Shown: in pieces, positions 249 to 3,576 of the stretch
Numbering within the stretch: the stretch's first letter is position 1
Layout of the letters: each line of letters opens with the position of its first letter
Source of the DNA: Actinomycetota bacterium
GTDB taxonomy: Bacteria > Actinomycetota > Acidimicrobiia > IMCC26256 > PALSA-555
NCBI GenBank assembly: GCA_003140175.1
Contig: PLJD01000007.1
Span: forward strand, 1 to 64,000
Length of the DNA: 64,000 nucleotides
Direction of reading: 5' to 3'
Notes under the pieces: model-generated
The model's database searches: none
Seen by the model: the letters and a program-made list of their open reading frames with translations, nothing else
Told to the model about the DNA's origin: nothing
Program-made: the position numbers and the translations under genes

Positions 249-264
249 GGTAGTGGCTCAGTTT
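249..264 (+). repeat. left terminal inverted repeat
   Basis: GGTAGTGGCTCAGTTT, identical to the reverse complement of 2279-2294. Similarity continues imperfectly inward (GGGGTTCCGG on the left, TGAGGATTTCCG on the right, read inward). Confidence 0.9.
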
Positions 265-274
265 GGGGTTCCGG

Positions 275-943
275 CTACCAGTCGTCCGGGTGTTTCCAGG
301 AGCCTGGCGGGGTAAGCGGAAAGCCGTTCACCGTTGCGTCCACAATGCCGGGTAGCGGCGAGTAACGCAGGTGGCGCTTCCCGACCCGGAGGTACTTGGT
401 GGCGATGTTGCCGAAGACCTCCTGGCCTCGTCGGGGGGGAGCGGCGACGACAACCGGTAGGCCGTACGCCTCTTTGACTGCCTTGATCGTGGGGATGAGG
501 TCCGTGTCACCCGTCACGAGGATCTGGATTTGGGGAAGCGCAACGCCCTCTTCGGTGGGGTGGCCTGCCGCGTCGCGCATCATCTCGACCGCCAGGTTCA
601 CGTCCGTTTGCTTCTCTTTGTGGAACGTGACGGGAGTGCCACATTTGGGGCATTCCTCGGTCTTGGGGTCGTATTTGCCAAATCGCATGCTCAGGTTGGG
701 CGAGTGGGAGGCCACGGCTTCCAGCCACGTGTCTTGATGGGCACGCTTCTGCGAATCGAGCACGAAGCTTGTGCAGTATGTGACGCGCACAAGTCGAATG
801 GCCTCACCCATCTTGCTGCCGGCGTCGTGGGCGAGCATCTGGCACATGTGCTCGATATCCAGCCAGCGGTAGTCGAGGAGCTCAGCATCTTCCATGCCGT
901 GGTAGAGGTTTAGGCCATCGACATAGGCCACGGCTTCCAGCAT
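275..943 (-). CDS. NYN-domain protein (LabA/DUF88-like putative ribonuclease)
   Basis: A 222-residue protein with the NYN/PIN-like acidic site: YVDGLNLYHG near the N-terminus (Asp9, Asn12), QTDVNLAVEMM (Asp114) and LVTGDTDLIPTIKAV (Asp146, Asp148). NYN proteins of this type are metal-dependent RNases or are inferred to be. A CPKC pair at residues 98-101 adds a possible metal knuckle. The ATG at 943 is preceded by GGTGGAG at suitable spacing. It is divergent from the possible RNA and the wHTH-like gene, inside the insertion cassette. Acting as a nuclease on cellular or element RNA is inference. It is not a known transposase family, but a role in the movement of the cassette cannot be excluded. 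Confidence 0.88.
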   Translation of the reverse strand: MLEAVAYVDGLNLYHGMEDAELLDYRWLDIEHMCQMLAHDAGSKMGEAIRLVRVTYCTSFVLDSQKRAHQDTWLEAVASHSPNLSMRFGKYDPKTEECPKCGTPVTFHKEKQTDVNLAVEMMRDAAGHPTEEGVALPQIQILVTGDTDLIPTIKAVKEAYGLPVVVAAPPRRGQEVFGNIATKYLRVGKRHLRYSPLPGIVDATVNGFPLTPPGSWKHPDDW

Positions 944-971
944 TTGGGCTCCACCCTTGGTGTGTGGCTAG

Positions 972-1000
972 GTGACTTATTTCGCAGGCAGGTCTATGAT
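972..1000 (+). promoter_or_regulatory. candidate sigma-70-type promoter for the structured region
   Basis: GTGACT at 972-977 and TATGAT at 995-1000 with an exact 17 bp spacer. Predicted start is near 1007. It faces the hairpin-rich stretch and overlaps the divergent promoter region of the NYN gene. Confidence 0.5.
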
Positions 1001-1006
1001 TGTGGG

Positions 1007-1205
1007 TACATCCCCCAGGCGGGAGTCTGGGGACTCAGCGGGCCCCGCTTTGCGGCGGGGTCCCGCCGCGTTCGGGGCTAGTCCAGAAGCTCCGCCAACT
1101 GGGTCAGAGAAGCCCCTGGGGTTGCCGCCCCGGGGGTTTCCTCGTTCCCGAGGCTACTCCGCCTGTCTCCATCCATCAAGACACGGGAGACAGAGGGGTG
1201 GTGTT
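1007..1205 (+). ncRNA. candidate structured RNA inside the insertion cassette
   Basis: Three successive hairpins follow the candidate promoter: GAGTC-tggg-GACTC (1023-1036), an 11 bp stem with one bulge (1038-1048 with 1055-1066), and a 13 bp stem with a 6 nt loop (1109-1121 with 1128-1140). In the last stem two pairs are G-U wobbles on the plus strand and become mismatches on the minus strand, which favours a plus-strand RNA. A further inverted repeat CTGTCTCC/GGAGACAG (1163-1170, 1186-1193) precedes a T-rich run. I recognise no Rfam family. This could instead be a long leader or a set of protein-binding sites. Confidence 0.42.
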
Positions 1206-1212
1206 TTATCTC

Positions 1213-1241
1213 TTGTTTTGTCTCCGGGGGTCTGCTAGTTT
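1213..1241 (+). promoter_or_regulatory. promoter of the wHTH-like gene, predicted leaderless, with GTCTCC sites
   Basis: TTGTTT (1213-1218), a 17 bp spacer and TAGTTT (1236-1241) put the transcription start at about 1248, the A of the ATG, so the mRNA would be leaderless; no Shine-Dalgarno is visible. TGTCTCC occurs at about 1164-1170, inverted at 1186-1192, and again at about 1219-1225 within the spacer. This fits autoregulation. Confidence 0.5.
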
Positions 1242-1247
1242 GACTGC

Positions 1248-2057
1248 ATGGTCAAGACGACCCCGACGAAGAAGCTCAGGAGCCCTAGCTACCCATCCAT
1301 TGGCCTAGAGGAGGCGCTGAGGCGGGGGCGAGAGTTCTACGACCATGAGCGTCGGAACCCTGCGCCCGTAGACACCGTGCTCCACCATTGGGGGTACAAG
1401 CCCGGCAGCGGAGCGGGCGTTCTCGCCATCGCAGCGCTGCGGAAGTTCGGGCTGATCGAATATATCGGTACGGGTGCCCAGCGCAAAGCGCGACTCACAG
1501 ACCTCGCATTTCGCATCATTCTCGACCAGCGGGAGCCGTCGCCTGAACGTGACGAGGCCCTCCGCCAAGCCGCACTAACCCCAGCGATTCATTCGGACAT
1601 TCGGCGGAAGTTTCCGACTCCACCCCTGCCCTCCGACTCCACCCTGAGGCACTACCTGGTCTTCGACCGTCAATTCAATGAGAACGCGGTGACCCTCGTT
1701 ATCGACGAGGTCAGAGGTACATGGGCCTTCGCGAAGCTCGACGAGTCTGGTACCCTGCCTGACGGTGACGCGAGCATGGAGTCTCAAGTGACCCAACCCG
1801 TGAATTCCACCGTGGACCGGATTCTTGGCCGGGAAGGTGTTCCGCCCATGCCGGCGACTGCCCATGCTGGCCGCTCGCTACAGATCCCGCTTCCTGGTGG
1901 CGGAGCAGCCACCTTGGTGACCTCCCGCCCGATTACCAGCCAGGAATGGGCGACACTCCGTACCGTGATCGACGCGATGGAAGCGAGCTTTGTGGAGGCG
2001 CCGCCGCCGGTCCATACCAATGACGCCGACCACTCCACAGGAGCGGACGAGGACTAG
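1248..2057 (+). CDS. hypothetical protein with a probable N-terminal winged-helix region
   Basis: A 269-residue soluble protein I cannot assign to a named family. Residues about 20-90 (LEEALRRGREFYDHER... AIAALRKFGLIEYIGTGAQRKARLTDLAFRIIL) read like a winged-helix domain: helices followed by a GLI(E)Y strand and a basic wing. Residues about 95-150 hold a second predicted helical segment with KFPTPPLPSDSTLRHYL. The C-terminus is low complexity and acidic (HTNDADHSTGADED). It lies downstream of a leaderless-type promoter with repeated GTCTCC motifs. Its stop is adjacent to the stop of the convergent zinc-knuckle gene with no gap (2057/2058). Regulator of the cassette is the simplest inference; a DNA-end-binding role is also possible. 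Confidence 0.8.
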   Translation: MVKTTPTKKLRSPSYPSIGLEEALRRGREFYDHERRNPAPVDTVLHHWGYKPGSGAGVLAIAALRKFGLIEYIGTGAQRKARLTDLAFRIILDQREPSPERDEALRQAALTPAIHSDIRRKFPTPPLPSDSTLRHYLVFDRQFNENAVTLVIDEVRGTWAFAKLDESGTLPDGDASMESQVTQPVNSTVDRILGREGVPPMPATAHAGRSLQIPLPGGGAATLVTSRPITSQEWATLRTVIDAMEASFVEAPPPVHTNDADHSTGADED

Positions 2058-2237
2058 CTACTTCCCGTCAGTTGCCTCACGCACCGTGCGGGCAGCCGCC
2101 TGGTTGGCATCCTCGGGAGCAGCCTGGCACGTGCACGGGTTCGGGCCCATGTAGATGGCCTCGCGCTCGCCGGTGTCGGGGTCGACATGGAAGTTGCCTC
2201 CGCATGTCGCGCACTCCCGAATCTCAAGGTGCTTCAC
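2058..2237 (-). CDS. small CxxC zinc-knuckle protein
   Basis: The longest ORF (73 aa) opens with TTG at 2279, but that codon lies in the terminal repeat. A GTG at 2237 gives a 59-residue protein MKHLEIRECATCGGNFHVD and looks more natural. The motifs CATCG and CTC (NPCTCQ) could bind one zinc ion. Family unknown. It is convergent with, and directly abuts, the wHTH-like gene, and ends about 40 bp from the right inverted repeat. Start uncertain. Confidence 0.6.
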   Translation of the reverse strand: MKHLEIRECATCGGNFHVDPDTGEREAIYMGPNPCTCQAAPEDANQAAARTVREATDGK

Positions 2238-2278
2238 AACCACCACGATACCCCGGCAGCGTGCGGCGGAAATCCTCA

Positions 2279-2294
2279 AAACTGAGCCACTACC
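2279..2294 (-). repeat. right terminal inverted repeat
   Basis: Reverse complement of the left repeat, 16/16 identical. Bases 2290-2292 supply a TAG stop that truncates the glycosyltransferase. Confidence 0.9.
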
Positions 2295-3576
2295 CGGAGT
2301 TCGGGGCGCGACGACTCGACCAGTGCCGCCATCCGGCGTCGAGCGCGACCGCGGCGAGCACCACGATCGAGACCTCGGCCGGGGCGCGGAAGCGGATGAT
2401 GCCGTACGCGCCGGCAGCCAGCAGGGTCACGAGCACGACCGGCATCACCAGGGGCCAGCGGGTTCGCCGCTGCCGGCCGAGCACGACGAACCCGACGATC
2501 GCGAGGGGCGCCAGGAGATAGAAGGCGCCGATCCCCGCCCACGACGCCTCGACCGGGCGCCCCTCGACTCGGTCGAAGCGGGCGGTCTGGAACGGCTCGT
2601 AGAGATCCCAGATCCGCCCCACCCGGGCCGCGACCACGACCGGGAGCCGGCCGAGGTGGTCACGCATGTAGGTCAACGCCGCGTGATCCTGGCGGGCCGA
2701 CAGGACCGAGGGGTCCGTGGACGGCGGGACGGCGGTCGAGCAGCCCAGGCTCCAGTAGCCGAGCTCGGGGCCGTGGTAGGTGGCGTCGCAGTTGGCGCCG
2801 AGCAGCAGGCCGCCGTCGCCGGTCGACAAGGTGGTGGGCTTCTGGAAGGTGACGAGGTTGCGCACCACCCAGGGGGACACGACCACCCCGGCCACGACGA
2901 TTCCGAGGACCGCGAGCCCGACCCGGGCCCGGCCGGACCGCGAGCGGGTGATGACCACCGCGGGGACGAGGATCAACAGGACGAAGAACGACAGCTCGGA
3001 GCGGGTCAGCGCGGCGAGGCCGCACCCGACCCCGAGGAGCGTGGCGCTCACCCAGCTCGGCGAGCGCAGGAACCGGTACGTCGCGAGCAGGATCAGCGCG
3101 GTGAAGAGGATCGCCAGCGTCTCGGACATCACGATCCCGCTCGGGATCCACAGGTTCGGGTACAGCGCGGCGAGCACCGCGGCGATGATCCCCACCCGGC
3201 GACTGACGACGACCTCGCCCAGCCAGCCGATGACCCCGACTGCGACCGCGCCGAGGACCGCCATCGTCATGCGCTGGGGCACGGTCCCGCCGTGGATGCC
3301 GAACAGCCAGGTGGCCGGGACCTCGACGAGCGCGGTGAGGGGCGGGTGCAGCGCGCTGACACCCCCCACGACCGGGGTCTGGAACCCGTGCCCGGCGACG
3401 AGTTCGCCGGCCTGACCGACGTAGTAGAAGGCGTCGTAGAAGTTTCTGGTGTCGTACCGGGTGACCGTGAGCACGTACACGACGCGCAAGACCAGCCCGA
3501 CGACGCTGATCCCGAGCAGCGCCGCGACGAAGCGGCGGGACCCCGCGTCGCGGGTCGGCGGGTCTGCTCCCGTCAT
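2290..3576 (-). CDS. GT39-like membrane glycosyltransferase (PMT/ArnT type), 3' end altered by insertion
   Basis: A 428-residue polytopic protein. The N-terminal TM segment is followed by an extracytoplasmic loop with RYDTRNFYDAFYY, the position of the acidic catalytic motif in GT-C enzymes, then roughly ten more hydrophobic segments. Such enzymes move a sugar or similar group from a polyprenyl-phosphate donor. The start overlaps the stop of the thiolase-fold gene as ATGA, so it is translationally coupled to a catabolic operon. The last codons (APNSG-stop) use the inverted repeat of the cassette; the uninterrupted gene would have ended EPRPAAVDATASR at 200. Loss of this short soluble tail need not abolish activity. 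Confidence 0.85.
   Translation of the reverse strand: MTGADPPTRDAGSRRFVAALLGISVVGLVLRVVYVLTVTRYDTRNFYDAFYYVGQAGELVAGHGFQTPVVGGVSALHPPLTALVEVPATWLFGIHGGTVPQRMTMAVLGAVAVGVIGWLGEVVVSRRVGIIAAVLAALYPNLWIPSGIVMSETLAILFTALILLATYRFLRSPSWVSATLLGVGCGLAALTRSELSFFVLLILVPAVVITRSRSGRARVGLAVLGIVVAGVVVSPWVVRNLVTFQKPTTLSTGDGGLLLGANCDATYHGPELGYWSLGCSTAVPPSTDPSVLSARQDHAALTYMRDHLGRLPVVVAARVGRIWDLYEPFQTARFDRVEGRPVEASWAGIGAFYLLAPLAIVGFVVLGRQRRTRWPLVMPVVLVTLLAAGAYGIIRFRAPAEVSIVVLAAVALDAGWRHWSSRRAPNSG
2295..2302. repeat. right target-site duplication (8 bp)
   Basis: CGGAGTTC, exact copy of 241-248. Confidence 0.9.

Follow-up and report, generated by a model that had tools for sequence, protein, structure and literature searches.

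The first kilobases of the window, the whole 64-kb stretch of DNA analysed here, contain a segment that is built like a transposable element and encodes no transposase. This raises two questions, namely how the segment reached its site and what the genes inside it do. The segment spans positions 249-2294 (2046 bp) and ends in perfect 16-bp inverted repeats, GGTAGTGGCTCAGTTT, located at 249-264 on the plus strand and at 2279-2294 on the minus strand. No other perfect inverted pair of 16-mers, 40-6000 bp apart, is found in the 64-kb window, and 0.14 matches to the repeats would be expected even with 3 mismatches allowed. An exact 8-bp duplication, CGGAGTTC, flanks the segment at 241-248 and 2295-2302. 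When the segment and one copy of CGGAGTTC are deleted in silico, the frame of the glycosyltransferase gene at 2290-3576 (minus strand) is extended from 428 to 440 aa: it reads ...RRAPNS, continues through 13 new codons and stops at a TGA at 200-202. According to this empty-site reconstruction, the last 13 codons of the gene were cut off by the insertion. The repeats, the duplication and the restored reading frame had been described in an initial annotation of the sequence, and all of them are reproduced here. The gene content is also as described there: a NYN nuclease-like gene, a winged-helix (wHTH)-like gene and a cysteine-rich open reading frame (ORF) are present, and neither the ORF list nor searches with family models reveal a transposase inside 249-2294. 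The G+C content of the segment is 62.6%, compared with 69.8% for the window, and the third-position G+C is 0.72-0.78 in its genes, compared with 0.90-0.96 in neighbouring genes; the segment is therefore probably of foreign origin. No second copy was found in the genomes of the order. A search for an orthologous empty site gave no usable one, because homologues of the glycosyltransferase within the family share only 35-50% identity. Movement of the cassette itself was therefore not seen.

The end motif recurs in the genome to which the window belongs (4.2 Mb, 128 contigs). A 2104-bp element in this genome (L009 2431-4534) has the same ends except for one mismatch at position 9, is flanked by the duplication GGCTCAAA, and encodes, besides unrelated passenger ORFs, a transposase of 291 aa (36 bits to the Pfam IS1 transposase model, cut-off 24.1). 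In another case (G051), the exact cassette ends adjoin a decayed transposase. The motif was detected in 12 of the 58 genomes of the order, and a reversed-pattern control gave 0 hits. The elements found in the order include three with exact 8-bp duplications (L055, 547 bp; L056, 684 bp; L054, 36 bp) and a 1544-bp element with a 7/8 duplication (L057). Two candidate pairs of ~147 bp with poor ends (L019 and L021) had no convincing duplication and were excluded. When 397 genomes of the phylum (Actinomycetota) were searched for the transposase, more homologues emerged, mostly full-length, and most of these lie within 1.9-3.9 kb elements with group ends and exact duplications. Four homologues with good coverage are found on named alphaproteobacterial plasmids, from Mesorhizobium loti, Hoeflea, Methylocapsa and Acidiphilium, and exact duplications flank the element in three of the four. 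In viral contigs, the motif extended by GA has at least 120 matches, and 14 of 80 loci among the matches listed have both ends of an element together with a duplication. Since elements that have a transposase and exact 8-bp duplications are bounded by these ends too, autonomous relatives exist, both in the same genome (L009) and in many others. Such relatives had been asked for in the initial annotation.

At least 31 elements with group ends and an 8-bp duplication, exact in 30 and 7/8 in one, were collected from the same genome, the order, the phylum, plasmids and viral contigs, with the viral part taken among the matches listed. They range from 36 to 4224 bp in length. The consensus of the ends over 29 elements is GGTAGTGGGTCAGTTTGAA, in which positions 1-16 are nearly invariant except for position 9. 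Seventeen of the 31 contain a transposase gene and passengers, are 1862-4224 bp long and have exact duplications, and can be classed as transporter ISs (tISs). Another 13 have no transposase, like the cassette at 249-2294. Two elements of only 36 bp (L054 2949-2984 and L190 6179-6214) are little more than the two ends, joined by a few bases and flanked by the exact duplications CAGCTTCC and GGTCGCTG, respectively. L054 interrupts an IS1595-type transposase gene, and its removal restores the frame; L190 was the only 36-bp element found by a pattern scan of the viral contigs. These two elements suggest that transposition requires no internal sequence and that the 16-bp ends alone may suffice. 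We also note that TnpB genes are found between the same IS1-like ends in this genome (L013 2605 with L012 641-656, and L010 576-591 with L011 685-700); the 8-bp duplications are CGACACCT and CAATTTCG, and both elements are split over two contigs. TnpB cargo in a DDE-type cassette is unusual.

The transposases of the group share invariant residues D66, D140 and E205 in 18 sequences. Their best NCBIfam model is IS1 (transpos_IS1), at 59 bits against a cut-off of 100, and we therefore refer to the group as IS1-related and not as IS1 proper. The likeness to the IS1 family lies in the Pfam DDE_Tnp_IS1 match above cut-off, the conserved D-D-E, the NCBI annotation of the plasmid homologues as IS1 family transposase, and ends that begin with GGT, as the ends of IS1 do. 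Besides its score below the NCBIfam equivalog cut-off, the group differs from IS1 in its long passengers, in its 8-bp duplication, where IS1 itself usually makes 9-bp target duplications, and in its coding arrangement: the intact transposase copies are all in a single frame of ~280-300 codons, and not in the two frames joined by a frameshift of classical IS1. Single-frame IS1 relatives exist. In the searchable literature, we found no passengers in IS1-related elements and no description of this group, which may have been named earlier in ISfinder.

On the strength of these shared features, the segment at 249-2294 is very probably a mobile insertion cassette (MIC), a non-autonomous derivative of the IS1-related transporter-IS group, and its genes are passengers. 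As the terms are used in previous studies (PMC3129680, PMC9330008), MICs and tISs both carry passengers between IS ends, the former without and the latter with a transposase; they generate target duplications, and their movement is thought to be due to the cognate transposase. MICs and tISs are an already known kind of element. The noteworthy part here is the carrier, an IS1-related group with passengers in every transposase-bearing element examined, often of defence type. Because the ends and the length of the duplication are shared and relatives without a transposase are abundant, we infer that the cassette was mobilised in trans by a transposase of the group. In this process, the DDE transposase from a related element would act on the cassette by recognising its 16-bp ends, GGTAGTGG[G/C]TCAGTTT, and would cut the cassette out or copy it; insertion would then occur via an 8-bp staggered cut, into the last codons of the glycosyltransferase gene. 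The only intact transposase found in the same genome comes from an element whose ends have G instead of C at position 9, and the cognate enzyme may therefore be missing from this genome. Movement in trans was the first of three options considered in the initial annotation, and it is well supported by transposase-bearing relatives that have the same ends and exact 8-bp duplications.

The second option was a new type of element whose transposition involves the NYN protein or the wHTH protein, and these are indeed the only sizeable genes between the inverted repeats. The NYN gene (275-943, minus strand) encodes a ribonuclease-like protein of 222 aa, which matches Pfam NYN at 32.4 bits (cut-off 24.2) and PADLOC HEC-09 over its full length at 141.9 bits. 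Residues D9, D114, D146 and D148 are invariant across 9 homologues, and a zinc-ribbon-like CPKC motif is located within the NYN domain. Searching the PDB by sequence gave no match, and structure prediction without an alignment yielded an unusable model (pLDDT 33). Elsewhere, the NYN homologues stand alone, in chromosomal settings that vary from case to case and on many plasmids; they lack ends of this kind, and a scan of viral contigs found no homologue. This wHTH gene was found beside none of the homologous NYN loci examined, and the NYN-wHTH pairing is therefore so far unique to the cassette. Adjacency to tRNA genes, tried as a clue to the NYN protein, was dropped: a tRNA is present at just 2 of 10 homologue loci, at one of them 1.8 kb off. 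The end of one NYN homologue in the same family (L066 2113-3168) coincides exactly with another insertion of the group, which is 452 bp long with a 7/8 duplication and one imperfect end; this abutment is possibly a coincidence.

The wHTH gene (1248-2057, plus strand) encodes a protein of 269 aa with no family in Pfam, NCBIfam, PHROGs or PADLOC. Its AlphaFold2 model is confident for approximately residues 10-165, which form a winged helix followed by a helical bundle. The best likenesses of the model in the PDB include winged-helix repressors and other wHTH proteins, none of them significant, and the sequence gives weak matches to Csa3 (E 0.23). The model and the relatives point to a probable DNA-binding regulator or a partner of the NYN protein. 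A scan of genome contigs for the wHTH gene gave 2 loci. The closest relative, with 43% identity, is a passenger of a 3143-bp IS1595-family transporter IS (L053 1327-4469), which has a further passenger of 272 aa, ends that match at 17 of 20 positions and GAACTTGC as its exact 8-bp duplication. A viral contig holds another relative, which adjoins an IS1595-family transposase. The L053 element resembles the cassette in its wHTH passenger and the length of its duplication, and it differs from the cassette group in transposase family and ends. The wHTH gene is thus a recurrent cargo of unrelated IS types and not transposition machinery. Moreover, identical ends and 8-bp duplications are found on elements with an IS1-type DDE transposase, and neither the NYN gene nor the wHTH gene occurs in any other group element examined. 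Together with the IS1595-family setting of the wHTH relatives and the solitary NYN relatives, this makes a role of either protein in movement highly improbable.

As passengers of the cassette, the two genes may instead form a functional pair. HECs are single-gene candidates found through their embedding in Hma systems, and several of them, including HEC-06, are reported to be active (PMC12988326). HEC-09 is a computed candidate family in PADLOC-DB with putative activity, and one Pseudomonas study correlated it with phage susceptibility and not with resistance (PMC12447246). The NYN gene here differs from the Hma-embedded candidate in its position, divergent from a wHTH gene and inside a transposable cassette. 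Most likely, the NYN protein acts as a metal-dependent ribonuclease, the effector in a small module of anti-phage or toxin-antitoxin-like type, and is regulated or restrained by the divergently encoded winged-helix protein.

The third option, an RNA-based defence or toxin-like cargo, holds in part: the NYN protein qualifies as a candidate for defence (HEC-09), but none of the results demonstrates a mechanism based on RNA. The sequence that could encode an RNA is the divergent intergenic region of 304 bp at 944-1247, which contains GC-rich hairpins and three GTCTCC/GGAGAC motifs (at 1165, 1186 and 1220). If this region made an RNA partnering the NYN nuclease, in an RNA-based toxin-antitoxin or RNA-guided defence system, such an RNA could account for two observations, namely that the region folds somewhat better than shuffles on both strands (z ~ -2.7) and that a sigma-70-like promoter site, the one such site in the promoter scan, points into it (972-1000, plus strand). 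However, high G+C and two divergent promoters account for much of the folding, the region has no Rfam match and no relatives for covariation, and it contains just weak direct-repeat pairs in place of the tandem repeat array of a type III-like antitoxin. An RNA partner is therefore unlikely, and a structured leader within a regulatory region would account for 944-1247 as well as a separate RNA would. On the other side of the wHTH gene, the ORF list contains a 73-aa ORF (2058-2279, minus strand) whose stop abuts the wHTH stop. It has four cysteines arranged in pairs (CATC...CTC) and a coding-like codon G+C of 0.66/0.53/0.78, and is possibly a real gene by these sequence features. No relatives were found in the 58 genomes of the order, and no family match was obtained.

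The sister elements allow a further alternative to be weighed, in which the cassette genes are neutral cargo, trapped by chance between mobile IS ends and without a defence or toxin function. None of the 17 transposase-bearing elements is a bare IS, and the passengers amount to ~1-3 kb in each. Each of these elements measures 1862 bp or more, of which an intact transposase gene takes up ~0.85-0.9 kb, and passengers are therefore the rule in this sample. The rule is not a selection effect of the transposase search, because the search is blind to passengers. The transposase gene is truncated in three of the 17 (L133, L173 and L185). Strong PADLOC matches were found among the passengers of 9 of the 17 elements: a type I methyltransferase (L124), PDC-S13 (L125), HEC-06 (L126), RmrA (L128 and L133), PD-T4-9_C (L131), PD-Lambda-2_B (L137 and L185), and RmrT with RmrA (L138). 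In a control with flanking genes, 0 of 20 matched PADLOC at 30 bits or more. Four further elements with PADLOC matches have unverified duplications (L123, L166 and L196 with RmrA, and L170 with PD-Lambda-2_B). We note that the apparent defence enrichment is suggestive rather than measured, given the small size of the comparison and how common XRE/ImmA-type proteins are. Among the remaining passengers are SDH-type serine proteases, an aspartyl-protease-like protein, DUF6941-like proteins and a mycothiol S-transferase. Chance capture would fit the sister elements whose genes do not resemble defence genes (mycothiol S-transferase/DinB in L056; DUF2283-like by eye in L164; DUF6941-like in L009, L127 and L167), as well as the wHTH gene without a known family and the 73-aa ORF without relatives. 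It is at odds with the full-length HEC-09 match of the NYN protein and with the contrast between sister elements and flanking genes, and we consider it conceivable, if somewhat improbable. For the cassette cargo itself, we lean towards a defence or toxin-antitoxin role on these sequence matches.

Defence genes cluster and turn over fast, and the hopping of single small modules from genome to genome is less clear. We tentatively propose, at a likelihood that we put a little short of even, that the IS1-related group is a small carrier dedicated to defence and toxin-antitoxin modules. The autonomous members would always be loaded, and the transposase-less cassettes (NYN/HEC-09 with wHTH, TnpB and others), down to 36 bp of two ends alone, would be mobilised in trans among Actinomycetota, Alphaproteobacteria and virus-like contigs. 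The group would offer a simple route for module movement, with a 16-bp end, one small DDE transposase and exact boundaries that can be searched for, and genes without a family between such ends, for example the winged-helix gene, would be candidates for new defence components. Tn7-like transposons are similar in that their cargo is rich in defence genes (PMC8649781). By comparison, the elements of this group are far smaller (36 bp to 4.2 kb), with one DDE transposase and typically one defence-like module per element.

Two kinds of protein recur among the group elements. Predicted proteases are found as passengers in L173 (2630-3901), L184 (4452-5468) and L196 (4777-5619), and also in L129 and L140. 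They comprise proteins that look proteasome/Ntn-hydrolase-like by eye and others that are SDH-type serine proteases by Pfam, and it is possible that they are undescribed defence effectors. A small basic protein with the motif GRKGGLKGGKAR...EIAKKAAxARW is present in many elements with or without a transposase (L124, L125, L128, L129, L131, L132, L133, L173, L174, L177, L183 and L185), and was annotated as 'histone H1' by the depositors of the Mesorhizobium plasmid.
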